A stretch of 63,098 bases of DNA, taken from a virus. This document shows, piece by piece, positions 8,323-60,841 of this stretch. Within the stretch, counting starts at the first letter, position 1. Each line of letters opens with the position of its first letter. The position numbers were made by a program, and so were the translations under genes. The DNA is taken from positions 1 through 63,098 of IMG/VR virus record IMGVR_UViG_3300044641_004951; one strand, given 5' to 3'. The notes beneath the pieces are model-generated. The model had not been told where the DNA came from. It did not search any database and saw only the letters and a program-made list of their open reading frames with translations.

Positions 8323-11300
8323 TTAGCTCCTTTTTAACCCTACCGTATGAGTACCACCAGTACTTATCGCGGTCCAACTGCTGCTACCAATTTGTACTGG
8401 ACTAGATTTAGTTACTGTCGTACCATCACCTAATTTACCGTAAGAGTTACTTCCCCACGTAAATAGTAACTTATCGGATCTAATAGCTGATGTTTGCTGA
8501 AGACCCGCGCTAACGGCAGTCCAACTGCTGCTGCCGATTTGTACTGGGCTTGATTTACCAACAAGTGTTCCATCGCCTAATTGCCCTGACGAACCAGTTC
8601 CCCATGTAAATAATCTACCTACAGAAGTTATACCTGCAGTATGATATCTACCTGCACTTACCGCAGTCCAACTGCTGCTACCAATTTGTACTGGGCTGGA
8701 TTTATCATTTGTTGTATTATCACCTAATTCTCCCGCGTGAGAACCAGAATTTAAACCCCAGGTAAATAATGTACCACCTGATCTGATAGCAGCAGTATGT
8801 GAAGAACCAGCACTTACAGCGGTCCAGCTACTGCTGCCGATCTGTACTGGACTATTTCTACCAGATACCGCGGTACCATCGCCTAATTGACCGGAAGTGC
8901 CTAGACCCCATGCAAATAGGTATCCATCCGATCTAATAGCCATAGTATGAGCTAATCCAGCACTAACTGCCGTCCAACTGCTGCTACCAATTTGTACTGG
9001 ACTGGATCTTGTTATTGAAGAATTGTTACCGACTTGCACCGGGCTAGATTTAGTTGCTACAGTACCATCACCTAACGCACCTTGTGTACCTAGACCCCAT
9101 GTAAATAATGTACCTCCTGATCTAATAGCCGCAGTGTTAAAGCTTCCAGCACTAACTGCCGTCCAACTGCTGCTACCAATTTGTACTGGACTAGATTTAC
9201 CTACCACAGTACCATCACCTAGCTGACCGGAAGTGCCTTGTCCCCAGGTGAATAATGTACCACCTGATCTTATAGCTGAAGTGAGTAAGCGCCCCGCATC
9301 GACTGCCGTCCACGAACTTGAACCTATTTGTATAGGGCTTCGTATAGTAGTTGTTGTGTTATTACCTAACTGACCAGAAGAGTTAGAACCCCAAGTAAAT
9401 AGGTAACCATCCGATCTGATAGCCGCAGTATGTGAACCACCGGCACTTACTGCCGTCCAGCTACTGCCGTTGATTTCAAAAGGGCTATATCGATTAATTG
9501 CAATTGCGTTACTTCCAACTTGCACTGGACTTGATAAGCTAGTTGTAGTAATACTGTCACCTAGTTGACCTATTGCACCATTACCCCAAGTAAATAATGT
9601 ACCTCCTGATCTAATAGCGGTAGTATGACCACTGCCGGCACTAACTGCTGTCCAACTGCTACTTCCAATCTGCACTGGACTAGATTTAGATACTGTCGTA
9701 CCATCACCTAATTGTCCGGTAGCGCCTAAACCCCAGGTAAATAATGTACCACCTGATCTTATAGCTGAAGTATGATATTTACCAGCACTTACTGCTGTCC
9801 AACTGCTGCTACCAATCTGTACAGGGCTGGATCTGTTTGTTATAGTACCATCACCTAATGCACCCGCGCCAGTGCCGGAATTAATCCCAAAGGTAAATAA
9901 TGTACTACCTGATCTAATAGCTGCACTATGAAAACCACCAGCACTAACTACCGTCCAGCTACTGCTACCAATCTGTACAGGGCTGGATCTGTTTGTTGTA
10001 TTACCATCGCCTAATTGACCGGAAGTGCCTAGACCCCATGCAAATAGGTAGCCATCTGATCTTATAGCTAGAGCATGACCACCACCAGCACTCACTGCTG
10101 TCCAACTGCTGCTACCGATTTGTACCGGGCTTGATTTAGATATCGCGGTACCGTCACCTAGTCTACCGTTTGAGCTTAGACCCCAGGTGAATAATGTACC
10201 TCCGGATCTTATAGCGGTATTAAAGTTAAGACCTGCATCTACTGCTGTCCAACTGCTGCTACCAATTTGCACTGGGCTGGATTTAGTTACGCTGGTACCA
10301 TCGCCTAATTGACCGGAAGTGCCTAGACCCCATGCAAATAGGTAGCCATCCGATCTGATAGCCGCTGTGTGAGTAGAACCTGCACTAACTGCCGTCCAAC
10401 TACTACTTCCAATCTGCACTGGAGACCTTCTTAAATTTGTAGTTTCGTCACCTAATTGACCGGCTGTATTATAACCCCAGGTAAATAATAGACCATCTGA
10501 TCTAATAGCTGCTGTATGTGTGTCACCGGCGCTAACAAGAGTCCAACTAAAAATGTTCGTGACTTGACCTAATTGACCATCTAGACCACTACCCCATGTA
10601 AATAATGTACCACCTGATCTAATAGCTGCGGTATGTAAACCACCACCACTAACTACCGTCCAGCTGCTGCTACCAATTTGTACTGGACTAGATTTGGATA
10701 TTGCGGTGTTATCACCTAATTGACCGGAAGAGCCCGAACCCCACGTAAATAAGTAACCATCCAATCTGATAGCTGCATTATGGTAAAGTCCTGCATTAAC
10801 TGCCGTCCAACTGCTGCTACCAATTTGTACTGGACTAGATTTAGATACTATAGTACCATCGCCTAATTGACCGGAAGTGCCACGTCCCCACGTGAATAAT
10901 AAACCATCCGATCTAATAGCTGCTGTATGATCCAATCCGGCACTAACTACCGTCCAGCTACTGCTACCAATTTGTACTGGGCTAGATTTATTAGTTATTG
11001 TACCGTCACCTAGCTGACCATACCCATTAAAACCCCATGCAAATAATATTCCGTCCGATCTAATAGCCGTAGTGTGATTAGCACCAAAACTAACAAGAGT
11101 CCAACTAAGTGAATCTGTAATTTCACCCAACCGACCGTTTGTGCCGTCGCCCCAAGTAAAAAGATAGCCATCTGATCTTATTGCGGCGGTATGGGCACCG
11201 CCAGCATTAACTGCCGTCCAGCTACTGCTACCAATTTGTACTGGGCTAGATTTATTAGTTATTGTACCGTCACCTAGCTGACCGGTATCGTTTCGACCCC

Positions 11301-13788
11301 ATGTGAATAATAAACCATCTGATCTAATAGCTGTAGTATGATTTAATCCGGCAGTAACTAAAGTCCATGAAAATGAACCTACTAGTATAGGGCTTGAAAC
11401 TGTCTGAACATTGTTGCCAACTTGCACTGGACTGGATCTGCTTGTTCCAGTACCATCGCCTAACTGACCAGAAGAGTTAGAACCCCAGGTAAATAACGTA
11501 CCACCTGATCTTATAGCAGTAGTATGACCACCACCGGCACTTACTGCTGTCCAACTACTACTGCCGATTTGAACAGGGCTAACTCTTTGTGAAGTAGTAC
11601 CATCACCTAGTCTACCGGTTGTGCCGGCGCCCCAGGTAAATAATGTACCACCTGATCTAATAGCCGCAGTGTGTAGAGCACCAGCAGTAACTGCCGTCCA
11701 ACTACTGCTACCTATTTGAACGGGACTCGAAAAATCGCCACTACTACTACCATTACCTAGTCTACCGCTTGTGGCTGAACCCCATGTGAATAGGTAACCA
11801 TCTGATCTTATAGCAGCAGTATGTGTAGAACCAGCACTTACAGCGGTCCAGCTACTGCTGCCGATCTGTACGGGGCTGGATTTGTTTATTAAAGTACTAT
11901 CACCTAATTGACCGAAGCCTGAGTGACCCCAGGTAAATAATGTACCACCTGATCTTATAGCCGCAGTGTGTGAACCAGCACCAGCACTTACAGCGGTCCA
12001 GCTACTGCTGCCGATCTGTACGGGGCTGGATTTGGATATTGCGGTGTTATCACCTAATCTACCGTAAGAGTTACCTCCCCATGTAAATAATGTGCCACCT
12101 GATCTAATAGCAGCAGTATGTGAGCCACCGGCACTTACTGCCGTCCAACTACTACCACCTACTTGTACCGGGCTAGATTTGCTACTTTTTATCTCATTAT
12201 TTCCTACTTGCACTGGACTACTGGTAGTAGTTGCGTTATCATTGCCTAATTGACCAGAAGTACCTAGACCCCACGTAAAAAGTAACCCGTCCGATTTAAT
12301 AGCAGTAGTATTATTATAACCCGCAGAAACCATTGTCCAACTACTGCTACCTATCTGAACTGGACTAGATCGAGCGGTAACACTAGTATCATCTCCTACT
12401 TGACCAGATGCGTTTGAACCCCAGACGAATAATGTACCTCCGGATCTAATAGCCGCTGTACCGCGCCGACCGGCAGTCACTGCTACCCACGAACTAGAAC
12501 CAATTTGCACCGGGCTTGAATTAGTTGATATAGTTCCATCACCTAATTGACCAAAATCAGCGTTGCCCCATGTAAACAGAGTTCCTCCAGACCTTATAGC
12601 CGCTGTGTGTGAGCCTCCTGCAGCGACTGCTGTCCAGCTACTACTTCCAATTTGCACCGGGCTCGATCTAGATGTTAAAGTACTATCACCTAACTGCCCT
12701 GCTAAGTTTCCACCCCACGTAAATAATGTACCTTCGGATCTTATAGCCGCTGTGTGTGTAATACCGGCACTAACAGCAGTCCAAGAACTAGAGCCAATTT
12801 GTACCGGGCTGTTTCTAGTAGTAGTAGTACCGTCTCCGACTCTCCCATAACTATTAAGTCCCCACATGAACAGTCGACCGTCCGATCTAATAGCACCAGC
12901 ATGTAAAGTACCTGCAGCGACAGCAGTCCAGGAACTGGAACCAATTTGCACAGGGCTTGATTTTGTGACCGATGTACCGTCACCCAGTTGAGATGAAGTT
13001 CCGATACCCCATGTAAATAATAGTCCATCTGTTCTAATAGCTGCACTAAAGTCAACCCCAGCACTCACAGCAGTCCAAGAACTAGAGCCTATTTGCACCG
13101 GGCTTGATTTACTTACTATAGTTCCATCACCTAATTGACCGGAAGTGCCTAGACCCCATGTGAATAATAAACCATCCGAACGTATTGCAGCGGTATGAGA
13201 AGCACCCATGCTGACAAGAGTCCAACTATATGATTCAGAAATATGACCTAATTGACCGAAAGTGCCGGAGCCCCAGGTAAATAATGTACCACCTGATCTA
13301 ATAGCAGCAGTGTGAGATAAGCCAGCACTTACAGCGGTCCAACTGCTGCTACCAATTTGTACTGGACTAGATTTAGATACTATAGTACCATCGCCTAATT
13401 CACCATTTAGACCTCTACCCCATGTAAATAATAGACCATCTGATCTAATAGCTGCTGTATGTGCGTCAGCGGCGCTAACAAGAGTCCAACTATAAGTATC
13501 TGTTAATTGTCCAAGTTGACCGACGGAGCCGGATCCCCAAGCATAAAGTTGAAGTGTTGTTGGACCTACCGTGCCTACAGCAGCAAACATAGTACCAATA
13601 TCTACAGAACCAGATTGTAAGTTAGTAGTGCCAAAAGCAGTCCCACCATTACTCACACTGTAGTAATAGTTAGAAATATCTGTACCACCGACGGTATAAT
13701 TTACGTCGGCTCTTTTTGATGAAGAGCCGATAGGTTCAAATAACGAATCTAAATCAGAACCACTTACTCTAAAGCTGGTAGTAGGCAT
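8323..13788 (-). CDS. Giant RCC1-repeat (beta-propeller) fibre-like protein
   Basis: The 1821-residue protein has a unique N-terminal part (about residues 1-80, with VNYTVGGTDISNYYYSVSN) followed by tandem RCC1-type repeats to the C-terminus. The repeat is LFTWGxGxxGQLGDGTxxxK, then SSPVQIGSSSWTAVSAGxxH and TAAIRSxG. I count about 35 repeats by hand. Four (numbers 1, 3, 17, 21) are short versions lacking the SSPVQIGSS segment and a few are expanded. RCC1 repeats form seven-bladed propellers, so 35 would be five propellers. It lies among fibre genes and follows a collagen-like fibre, so a receptor-binding or virion-decoration role is inferred. It has no catalytic motif. DNA repeats are nearly identical, so assembly collapse or expansion is possible. 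Confidence 0.85.
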   Translation of the reverse strand: MPTTSFRVSGSDLDSLFEPIGSSSKRADVNYTVGGTDISNYYYSVSNGGTAFGTTNLQSGSVDIGTMFAAVGTVGPTTLQLYAWGSGSVGQLGQLTDTYSWTLVSAADAHTAAIRSDGLLFTWGRGLNGELGDGTIVSKSSPVQIGSSSWTAVSAGLSHTAAIRSGGTLFTWGSGTFGQLGHISESYSWTLVSMGASHTAAIRSDGLLFTWGLGTSGQLGDGTIVSKSSPVQIGSSSWTAVSAGVDFSAAIRTDGLLFTWGIGTSSQLGDGTSVTKSSPVQIGSSSWTAVAAGTLHAGAIRSDGRLFMWGLNSYGRVGDGTTTTRNSPVQIGSSSWTAVSAGITHTAAIRSEGTLFTWGGNLAGQLGDSTLTSRSSPVQIGSSSWTAVAAGGSHTAAIRSGGTLFTWGNADFGQLGDGTISTNSSPVQIGSSSWVAVTAGRRGTAAIRSGGTLFVWGSNASGQVGDDTSVTARSSPVQIGSSSWTMVSAGYNNTTAIKSDGLLFTWGLGTSGQLGNDNATTTSSPVQVGNNEIKSSKSSPVQVGGSSWTAVSAGGSHTAAIRSGGTLFTWGGNSYGRLGDNTAISKSSPVQIGSSSWTAVSAGAGSHTAAIRSGGTLFTWGHSGFGQLGDSTLINKSSPVQIGSSSWTAVSAGSTHTAAIRSDGYLFTWGSATSGRLGNGSSSGDFSSPVQIGSSSWTAVTAGALHTAAIRSGGTLFTWGAGTTGRLGDGTTSQRVSPVQIGSSSWTAVSAGGGHTTAIRSGGTLFTWGSNSSGQLGDGTGTSRSSPVQVGNNVQTVSSPILVGSFSWTLVTAGLNHTTAIRSDGLLFTWGRNDTGQLGDGTITNKSSPVQIGSSSWTAVNAGGAHTAAIRSDGYLFTWGDGTNGRLGEITDSLSWTLVSFGANHTTAIRSDGILFAWGFNGYGQLGDGTITNKSSPVQIGSSSWTVVSAGLDHTAAIRSDGLLFTWGRGTSGQLGDGTIVSKSSPVQIGSSSWTAVNAGLYHNAAIRLDGYLFTWGSGSSGQLGDNTAISKSSPVQIGSSSWTVVSGGGLHTAAIRSGGTLFTWGSGLDGQLGQVTNIFSWTLVSAGDTHTAAIRSDGLLFTWGYNTAGQLGDETTNLRRSPVQIGSSSWTAVSAGSTHTAAIRSDGYLFAWGLGTSGQLGDGTSVTKSSPVQIGSSSWTAVDAGLNFNTAIRSGGTLFTWGLSSNGRLGDGTAISKSSPVQIGSSSWTAVSAGGGHALAIRSDGYLFAWGLGTSGQLGDGNTTNRSSPVQIGSSSWTVVSAGGFHSAAIRSGSTLFTFGINSGTGAGALGDGTITNRSSPVQIGSSSWTAVSAGKYHTSAIRSGGTLFTWGLGATGQLGDGTTVSKSSPVQIGSSSWTAVSAGSGHTTAIRSGGTLFTWGNGAIGQLGDSITTTSLSSPVQVGSNAIAINRYSPFEINGSSWTAVSAGGSHTAAIRSDGYLFTWGSNSSGQLGNNTTTTIRSPIQIGSSSWTAVDAGRLLTSAIRSGGTLFTWGQGTSGQLGDGTVVGKSSPVQIGSSSWTAVSAGSFNTAAIRSGGTLFTWGLGTQGALGDGTVATKSSPVQVGNNSSITRSSPVQIGSSSWTAVSAGLAHTMAIRSDGYLFAWGLGTSGQLGDGTAVSGRNSPVQIGSSSWTAVSAGSSHTAAIRSGGTLFTWGLNSGSHAGELGDNTTNDKSSPVQIGSSSWTAVSAGRYHTAGITSVGRLFTWGTGSSGQLGDGTLVGKSSPVQIGSSSWTAVSAGLQQTSAIRSDKLLFTWGSNSYGKLGDGTTVTKSSPVQIGSSSWTAISTGGTHTVGLKRS
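8400..13540 (-). repeat. Tandem ~150-base coding repeats (RCC1 blades)
   Basis: The segment contains many near-identical copies of a coding unit of about 150 bases, for example the phrase CCAACTGCTGCTACCAATTT recurs with few changes. Repeats encode the RCC1 blades of the 1821-residue protein. Such identity at DNA level implies recent duplication or gene conversion and makes copy number unstable. Confidence 0.85.
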
Positions 13789-57580: not shown

Positions 57581-57746
57581 TTTCAGTTAGCAGTTGAGTA
57601 CCATTGTTGTGATCTTTATCACCTTCAAGAAGTCTTCGCTTTTCGTTTTGCGATAAGTCTCTTCCGAGAATGTTATCCCATCGATGAGAATATTCCTCAT
57701 CGATGTAATTGTAAGATACAACCTTTTGATTTACAACTGTTCCCAT
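57552..57746 (-). CDS. Small hypothetical protein
   Basis: A 64-residue ORF (MGTVVNQKVVSYNYIDEEYS, then HRWDNILGRDLSQNEKRRLL) lies directly downstream of the tmRNA terminator. No family recognised. A possible ribosome site (TCTGGAGATTAC) precedes it. Confidence 0.5.
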   Translation of the reverse strand: MGTVVNQKVVSYNYIDEEYSHRWDNILGRDLSQNEKRRLLEGDKDHNNGTQLLTENDNMHRKQT

Positions 57747-57756
57747 GTAATCTCCA

Positions 57757-57797
57757 GAAAAAAATAACCGGTTGATTCTGTTTCCAAGTTCAACCGG
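57757..57797 (-). terminator. Rho-independent terminator after the tmRNA
   Basis: On the minus strand CCGGTTGA and TCAACCGG form an 8-bp stem (loop of about 14 bases), followed by TTATTTTTTT. It lies just after the coding piece of the tmRNA and would end its transcript. Confidence 0.75.
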
Positions 57798-57802
57798 AAA
57801 AA

Positions 57803-58095
57803 CTCATGCTGCAGGTTTAGGCTGCAGCTAGGAAACGCTCATCGTTTGCGTTTATTGGCTTGCTTCTTCGACTGGGTTGTCCCAATCCTACGGGTTTCAC
57901 ATTCCCGTGCTGTCCATTTCGTTACTCTTTGCCCCGTCGAAACCTGGTCAGGCCCATTAGTAAGCATACTTTAGAGGATAACCTTCCCTCTGAGTCTTTT
58001 GTGGATTGACTACCACAGGGCACCGACAAATATGCTTACTGGTGGACCTGGGCGGAATCGAACCGCCGTCCGGAGCACTTTTCTCTCTACTTCAT
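57803..58095 (-). ncRNA. ssrA: Circularly permuted (two-piece) tmRNA, ssrA
   Basis: On the minus strand the order is acceptor piece, spacer, coding piece. The acceptor piece holds the T arm (GGCGGTTCGATTCCGCC) and ends CAGGTCC-A-CCA (CCA at 58042-58040). The coding piece starts at 57955 with GGGCCTGACCAGGTTTCGAC, the tmRNA 5' signature. GGGCCTG pairs with CAGGTCC in all seven positions (one G-U). GGGGCA (57935-57930) pairs with TGCTCC (58077-58072) as P2. The tag frame at 57849-57817 encodes ANDERFLAAA and a stop. The ~84-base spacer is bounded by a perfect 9-base inverted repeat (GTAAGCATA, 58039-58031, and TATGCTTAC, 57968-57960). Outer ends are approximate. It rescues stalled ribosomes using host SmpB. 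SmpB is not seen here. Confidence 0.92.
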
Positions 58096-58111
58096 ACAGC
58101 AATAAAATTAT

Positions 58112-58414
58112 TTATTTCAGGAAATTACCTGACCCGGATGCAATTATACATGCAAGATTGTTCTTTGTCAAGAACAGTCCGATCGTGTATTCCTCATTGT
58201 CCTTATTGTGTGGCATGAAAGAGAGTACACCTTCTTTCGCATGGAGTGTGTCAATGCCGGCGAATACGATCTTTTCTTTTAGCTCTTTTGTTAAGAGATT
58301 CAATACAACATCCCTGTCAAAACAATTCACAGTGTATGTGACTTTGGTTTCTTTACTTTGTGCAGAAACTAAAGTGGAAAATGCAATTAGCACTGCACAA
58401 AGTAGGGTTTTCAT
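58112..58414 (-). CDS. Small exported protein, paralogue B (signal peptide)
   Basis: The 100-residue protein has a Sec signal peptide (MKTLLCAVLIAFSTLVSAQS, cleavage after A18 or so). The mature part includes CFDRDVVLNLLTKELKEKIV and TIGLFLTKNNLACIIASG. It is a paralogue of the protein at 54854-55156: same length, same two-Cys layout, same CFDRD and KEKIVF motifs. It ends 17 bases before the approximate start of the tmRNA acceptor piece. Function is unknown; periplasmic location is predicted. Confidence 0.65.
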   Translation of the reverse strand: MKTLLCAVLIAFSTLVSAQSKETKVTYTVNCFDRDVVLNLLTKELKEKIVFAGIDTLHAKEGVLSFMPHNKDNEEYTIGLFLTKNNLACIIASGSGNFLK

Positions 58415-59830: not shown

Positions 59831-60841
59831 TCAATGATTAATTTGCTTCCATACCCTATTGCGTATCTCATTTGTCAATTTGTCGGGTAGAGGTACGTAT
59901 TCTAAATCTAACGCAAGCTGCTTACCACTACGGAAAGCCCAGTCAAAAAACTTAAGGATTTCTTTTGACTCATTTTTATCTTTAGGATTAATATACATCA
60001 GAATGAACGATGCGGTAACTACTGGATACGAATCTTTACCGGGTTGATCTACTAATGATATACCCATCCCAGGCACACTTGCCCAATCGGCGCCAGCAGC
60101 AGCTGCAGCAAAAGTCTCATCACCTGGCATTACAAAGTTGCCCGAACGATTCTGTAAGGCGAGAACGGCGATGTTATTTTTCTTTGCGTATGCATACTCG
60201 ACGTAACCAATAGAACCCTTAATACGTGTAACGTTAGCAGCTACGCCTTCGTTACCCTTACCTCCTACAGATGAGGAGGCCGGCCATTTAACAGCTGCTC
60301 CTTTACCTACACGATCAGACCATTCTTTACTTACTGAACTTAAATAATCAGTCCAGTTGAATGTTGTACCTGAACCATCCGCACGGTGAACTACTGTTAT
60401 GTTGGTATTAGGTAGTGTCTTGCCGGGATTAAGACTAGCAATTTTTGTATCGTTCCATTTAGTAATATTACCAAGAAAAATATCAGCTAGCACCTGACCT
60501 GTAATTCGAAGTTCACCCTTCTTAAAACCGTCTAGATTAAAAATAGGAACTGTCCCTCCAATTATAGCAGGAAACTGAATCATTTTGTCTCTTTCTAGCT
60601 CATCACCAGGGACCGGGGCATCTGTAGCGCCGAATGCAACGGTATTGGCACGTATTTGTCTAATGCCACCAGAAGAGCCTATTGACTGGTAATTAAGTTT
60701 TGTACCGGTAAGCTTACTATATTCTTCAGCCCATTTAGCGTAAATAGGAAAAGGGAATGTAGCACCGGCTCCACTAATAGTAGTATTAGCAAATGCACTG
60801 CAGTAAAAAAATAAGGCAAAAACAGCAAATAGTAATTTCAT
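59831..60841 (-). CDS. pstS: Phosphate ABC transporter substrate-binding protein PstS
   Basis: The 336-residue protein has a signal peptide (MKLLFAVFALFFYCSAFA) and PstS motifs: ISGAGATFPFPIYAKW, GSSGGIRQI, FGATDAPV and HRADGSGTTFNWTDYL, which form the phosphate site. It binds phosphate in the periplasm for the host Pst transporter. It is a common auxiliary metabolic gene of aquatic T4-like phages. The leader region has a possible Pho-box-like element at 60888-60905. Length equals the bacterial family. Confidence 0.93.
   Translation of the reverse strand: MKLLFAVFALFFYCSAFANTTISGAGATFPFPIYAKWAEEYSKLTGTKLNYQSIGSSGGIRQIRANTVAFGATDAPVPGDELERDKMIQFPAIIGGTVPIFNLDGFKKGELRITGQVLADIFLGNITKWNDTKIASLNPGKTLPNTNITVVHRADGSGTTFNWTDYLSSVSKEWSDRVGKGAAVKWPASSSVGGKGNEGVAANVTRIKGSIGYVEYAYAKKNNIAVLALQNRSGNFVMPGDETFAAAAAGADWASVPGMGISLVDQPGKDSYPVVTASFILMYINPKDKNESKEILKFFDWAFRSGKQLALDLEYVPLPDKLTNEIRNRVWKQINH

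Follow-up and report, generated by a model that had tools for sequence, protein, structure and literature searches.

A complete circularly permuted tmRNA gene lies on the minus strand of a T4-like phage contig, at about 57757-58101 of the window (the whole 63,098-nt stretch of IMG/VR record IMGVR_UViG_3300044641_004951 analysed here). tmRNA is an RNA that rescues stalled ribosomes, and we put at roughly 0.82 the probability that this gene encodes a functional two-piece tmRNA of the phage, transcribed early and working in trans-translation with host factors. ARAGORN called a tmRNA* at 57726-58132 (-) with the tag ANDERFLAAA, and two Rfam models of permuted tmRNA exceeded their curated cut-offs, namely RF04321 tmRNA_permuted (117.2 bits vs a cut-off of 47, E = 3e-22, at 57817-58101) and RF01850 beta_tmRNA (88.9 bits vs a cut-off of 84, at 57748-58184, model positions 1-331, i.e., the full model), the latter by a narrow margin. 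The copies in two related contigs (L003 and L004) score 99.7 against the same beta model. The acceptor half precedes the coding half, the acceptor stem spans both pieces, and the T-arm, D-loop analogue and P2 pairing all aligned to the Rfam model. An earlier examination of the letters alone, hereafter the sequence-only reading, had proposed a permuted tmRNA of betaproteobacterial type with this same tag in a T4-like phage, listing an encoded CCA, a cross-piece 7-bp acceptor stem, P2, TTTCGAC and a tag frame. All of these elements were found, the window copy is closest to the beta model, the Infernal search that had been proposed as a check upheld the call with both models, and the window encodes a gp59 helicase loader and a baseplate wedge protein, in line with a T4-like phage. 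The proposed interval (57803-58095) marked the right locus but was somewhat short at both ends, and the spacer repeat, described as 9 bp and perfect, is present but longer, with one G-U pair added to its 10 Watson-Crick pairs.

Table 1. Features of the permuted tmRNA gene and its surroundings in the window, and spacer-nested genes in other phage contigs
Feature	Position	Strand	Description
Acceptor piece	58040..58101 (about 58101-58040)	-	P2 5' strand TGCTGT, T-arm, CAGGTCC, discriminator A, encoded CCA
T-loop of acceptor piece	within 58040..58101	-	TTCGATT
Spacer, 84 nt	57956..58039	-	closed by inverted repeat (10 Watson-Crick pairs + 1 G-U); two inner hairpins
Coding piece to tag stop	57817..57955	-	5' acceptor strand GGGCCTG, D-loop analogue GGTTTCGAC, P2 3' strand ACAGCA, tag frame
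Tag frame ANDERFLAAA-stop	57817..57849	-	GCA resume codon to TAA; ARAGORN; ANEERFLAAA in relatives
Post-tag hairpin	57808..57828	-	GCTGCAG/CTGCAGC; retained with G-U changes in relatives
3' hairpin, 8 bp	57758..57797	-	CCGGTTGA/TCAACCGG, then T-run TTATTTTTTT; from sequence; also conserved in L002
sigma70-type promoter	58143..58171	-	TTGACA-17-TATAAT; 12/12 consensus; sole exact match in the 63-kb window
Array of 12 phage tRNAs	61149..62961	-	ARAGORN; about 3 kb upstream of tmRNA, same translation-related region
Micropeptide spacers	L200 2210-2226 and neighbours; L208, L225, L268, L274, L279, L280, L294, L307, L316, L326, L337, L272/L330, L306/L314, L281/L287/L310/L318		
Larger nested genes	L165, L277, L342		101 aa
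Larger nested genes	L292, L312		151-152 aa
Larger nested gene	L219		119 aa
Larger nested genes	L291, L298		83-84 aa
Larger nested genes	L313, L321		
IscU-like nested protein	L341		128 aa; NifU_N, E = 3e-55
CxxCxxCC nested protein	L177		86 aa

The acceptor stem GGGCCTG/CAGGTCC forms 7 of 7 pairs and includes G3:U70, the identity element read by alanyl-tRNA synthetase; the coding piece, which starts at 57955, contains GGTTTCGACGGGG. Reading of the spacer sequence revealed neither a Shine-Dalgarno site nor a contained ORF. The precursor fold was more stable than all 100 shuffles (z = -3.4), and its minimum-energy structure included the T-arm, the acceptor stem and the closing helix, the last stacked atop the acceptor stem. 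The 3' hairpin with its T-run, the terminator of the sequence-only reading, is a likely terminator; conservation of its loop region among relatives makes it probable that it also forms the 3' end of the coding piece.

Expression of the gene during late infection, which had also been proposed, did not fit the promoter data. The T4-type late motif TATAAATA occurs in ten exact copies on the window minus strand, none of them at the tmRNA gene. Because the only exact sigma70 promoter lies here and the late motifs lie elsewhere, early rather than late expression appears more likely. Among the other phage copies, near-consensus -10 elements were seen upstream of those in L171 and L198.

We found no SmpB gene in the 63-kb fragment, so host SmpB would be needed; in most Burkholderiales this protein probably works with a one-piece tmRNA, which counts against the proposed function. 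After its early transcription from the gene's sigma70 promoter, the precursor would fold such that the acceptor stem bridges the two pieces and the spacer is looped out, and host enzymes would remove the spacer, with RNase P acting at the coding-piece 5' end and a 3'-processing nuclease acting after the encoded CCA. The paired pieces are predicted to receive alanine via G3:U70 and, once charged, would bind host SmpB and EF-Tu and enter ribosomes stalled on broken mRNAs, where (A)ANDERFLAAA would be appended and translation would terminate at the tag stop codon. Ribosome recycling could in this way be maintained while host mRNA is destroyed in infection, a putative benefit to the phage, and truncated proteins would be marked by a C-terminus slightly unlike the usual betaproteobacterial ALAA. 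Given what is known of the family, ordinary trans-translation with host SmpB, AlaRS, EF-Tu and processing enzymes is the most likely mode of action.

Comparison with the nearest relatives points to selection on the mature RNA. Among the scanned viral contigs with the neighbouring gene, L003 and L004 carry related copies with the tag ANEERFLAAA, and global alignment of the window copy with that of L004 gave 90% identity for the acceptor piece, 98% for the coding piece and 43% for the spacer, the last being about the level expected from unrelated sequence. The diverged L003/L004 spacer still has the closing helix. This contrast between conserved pieces and a drifting yet helix-closed spacer indicates that selection acts on the gene; such a pattern would arise from functional mature pieces and a discarded spacer, and it indirectly supports cutting of the precursor into two mature pieces. 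Across 67 distinct phage copies (among the matches listed), the acceptor stem took 11 forms with several compensatory changes and always kept 7 pairs and G3:U70, a completeness that was partly selected for by our parser, which demanded at least 6 acceptor-stem pairs. Spacer ends also paired better with each other than with those of other phages' spacers (mean helix 10.4 vs 6.3). A tree built from the mature pieces placed the window copy inside the phage copies (support 0.97-0.99 for the nearest clades) and at a distance from the two bacterial copies included, the bacterial copies L119 and L120 being outside this tree. At the DNA level, the window tmRNA region and the last 12.7 kb had zero matches in 50,697 phage records.

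Contig L002 (2707-2982) has the tag ANDERFLAAA and a 3' end very similar to that of the window, together with a divergent tRNA-like domain (GGCAGTA T-loop and altered D-loop), and its tmRNA was missed by ARAGORN. The T-loop GGCRGTN replaces TTCGANT in L092, L096, L098, L100, L102, L103 and L108 and was present in 19 of the 67 copies among the matches listed, with positions 54 and 58 switching jointly from U-A to G-G and C56 alone retained; TGCGAAT was found in 14 copies.

The tag ended in ALAA in 93 of 101 sampled genomes of one Burkholderiales family, whereas the LAAA ending is retained in the window, L003/L004 and L002 and is absent from all other phage tags parsed among the matches listed, counts that are approximate, as the parser frame was wrong for some tags. 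A tag of the form -RFLAAA was seen in 1 of 301 genomes of one Burkholderiales family and once in 84,980 species genomes, in both cases in Azohydromonas caseinilytica, which has two tmRNA genes, one permuted with ANDERFLAAA (L266 7953-8292) and one standard with ANDERFALAA (L267 8020-8498). We considered and rejected a prophage origin of the same-tag copy, the neighbours of which resemble ordinary bacterial genes; the tag common to Azohydromonas and the window copy may be convergent. One alternative to ordinary trans-translation is that the phage RNA acts as a decoy or tag-switcher that draws SmpB and stalled ribosomes away from host tmRNA, its LAAA tag being read differently by ClpXP and leading to slower degradation or to another protease. 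The retention of LAAA in these phages against the ALAA of the Burkholderiales family would suit such a role, as would the reported inhibition of endogenous tmRNA by a CDS-less phage tmRNA form (DS6A; PMC11915505), but in all other respects the tag is a standard, hydrophobic one, its leucine displaced by just one position, and exactly the same tag is used by a bacterium, Azohydromonas, in its second tmRNA. We thus regard tag switching as rather unlikely. The rarity of -LAAA offers a way to test whether phages alter the signal by which truncated proteins are degraded.

We also weighed whether the gene is a passive relic of a host ssrA, carried off when a prophage attached at ssrA was excised imprecisely. 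Integration into ssrA is known, as are fragments of it in prophages (PMC9004378), but a relic is very improbable here, since no part of the gene is missing and it has a promoter of its own, drift in the spacer contrasts with conservation of the mature parts, its nearest relatives are all phage copies with the bacterial copies distant, and no integrase was found among the neighbouring genes scanned (part of the window's genes). Finally, Rfam and ARAGORN are able to overcall tRNAs as tmRNA, and an overlapping second call is indeed present in a Pseudomonas phage contig (L358); for the window, however, the chance that the match is a random or mis-folded tRNA-like sequence is negligible, with two independent models and ARAGORN in agreement, compensatory changes in the acceptor stems, and a sequence that relatives have conserved. 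A functional two-piece tmRNA engaged in ordinary trans-translation therefore remains our preferred reading.

The host is a separate matter. The sequence-only reading had taken the tag as a possible host indicator, but beta-type permuted tmRNAs also occur in cultured Pseudomonas aeruginosa phages, and the window tag is not the ANDERFALAA typical of Burkholderiales. The tmRNA of P. aeruginosa itself is of the one-piece form. Since these P. aeruginosa phages (Samunavirus) carry beta-type copies, the gene form does not identify the host, and we judge both tag and model type to be unreliable in this respect. A permuted tmRNA exceeded the beta cut-off in only 4 of 150 Burkholderiales genomes, and the window phage therefore probably meets hosts with one-piece tmRNA.

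Two-piece phage tmRNAs have been published before, including that of phage Melnitz, and a 2022 survey classed 53 of 133 phage tmRNA structures as two-piece, with aquatic or marine samples accounting for 50 of these (PMC9004378); a tmRNA database of 2025 holds 79 phage tmRNA sequences (PMC11915505). The search of related phage genomes suggested by the sequence-only reading returned a locus of the same type in L003/L004, and a permuted tmRNA over cut-off, mostly beta-type, in 23 of 50 related viral records, which together with the published survey contradicts the rarity implied for such genes in phages. A pattern scan of viral contigs yielded at least 119 matching stretches, and 71 of 79 examined loci were parsed as permuted, giving the 67 distinct copies (among the matches listed); overall, we found more than 100 permuted viral tmRNAs. 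The window copy is thus a well-supported beta-type addition to the phage two-piece tmRNAs already published. We also observed an unannotated alpha-type permuted tmRNA in Rhodobacter phage RcSimone-Hastad (L361 851-1138).

In relatives, the spacer frequently holds a protein gene of its own. Of 67 spacers (unselected sample, among the matches listed), 10 contain an ORF of 20 codons or more, and a scan for an acceptor end followed by the Shine-Dalgarno-like TAARGRGATT yielded 47 distinct parsed permuted tmRNAs, in many of which the ORF stop lies one base 5' of the coding piece. Rfam placed a permuted tmRNA over cut-off in 13 of 14 tested spacer-ORF contigs, the exception being L165. Recurrent cargo is a single-span membrane micropeptide of 20-24 residues with the Shine-Dalgarno site right after CCA and the stop codon a single base short of the coding piece, and spacers with larger nested genes reach 494 nt (Table 1). 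Three spacer-ORF families are under purifying selection, since synonymous changes dominate (pN/pS 0.16 for 10 micropeptide sequences of 24 aa, 0.16 for 4 sequences of 22 aa, and 0.24 for 3 sequences of 101 aa); two very close sequence pairs gave 0.47-0.54 from few changes only. Several nested-protein families start with MRIKELTES or similar, which we take to resemble a T4-type capsid-targeting propeptide. An unannotated spacer ORF, read from sequence, is also present in Melnitz (L359 1280-1475), with GGAGAAG upstream and extension into the coding piece (MFKWLSKTRLVVITRDYF...), so that this cultured phage is probably among those with a spacer ORF. With the Shine-Dalgarno site in the 5' arm of the closing helix, translation may be coupled to tmRNA processing. 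We consider it quite probable that the permuted tmRNA genes of phages constitute a class whose excised spacer is used to express a protein gene. In this scheme, the Shine-Dalgarno site comes right after CCA, the ORF fills the spacer and often ends a single base short of the second piece, the two arms of the closing helix consist of the ribosome-binding site and the last codons, and one transcript would give either tmRNA or mRNA, or the two together; the window copy is a member of this family of phage genes, its own spacer being non-coding. We found no published description of nested spacer genes in the open literature, most subscription journals being outside the scope of that search. If true, such genes would join ribosome rescue and phage protein translation in one transcript.

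Two further genes of the window deserve mention, a PstS-like phosphate-binding protein near the tmRNA (59831-60841, -), which is likely an auxiliary metabolic gene, and an 1821-aa protein in the tail-gene region (8323-13788, -) that matches RCC1-like ('regulator of chromosome condensation') phage families.

Among known systems, the Methylophilales phage Melnitz (MZ577097; PMC9004378) resembles the window phage as a T4-like aquatic phage with permuted order, encoded CCA, a tag frame, and a gp59-type helicase loader near the tmRNA, but its copy belongs to the alphaproteobacterial model (RF01849, 106.7 bits) rather than the beta model, has the tag ANDNYVPVDYALAA instead of ANDERFLAAA, and adjoins a glutamine riboswitch, whereas the Rfam search found no riboswitch in the window. 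The second Azohydromonas copy (RF01850) shares the permuted order, D-loop GGTTTCGAC, T-loop TTCGATT and tag with the window copy, which is phage-located; however, the mature pieces are only 58-65% identical, and the spacer has 38 nt vs 84 nt in the window. The Samunavirus Pseudomonas phages SM1 and UF_RH6 likewise carry beta-type permuted tmRNAs over cut-off, both without annotation (L358 1205-1504, KU245542; L357 1207-1506, OQ383211), with the tag ANDTSFDVRLAA, unlike that of the window, and in SM1 the tmRNA adjoins a tRNA gene. Together, these comparisons indicate that two-piece tmRNAs are widespread in phages, including cultured ones such as Samunavirus on P. aeruginosa and Melnitz.
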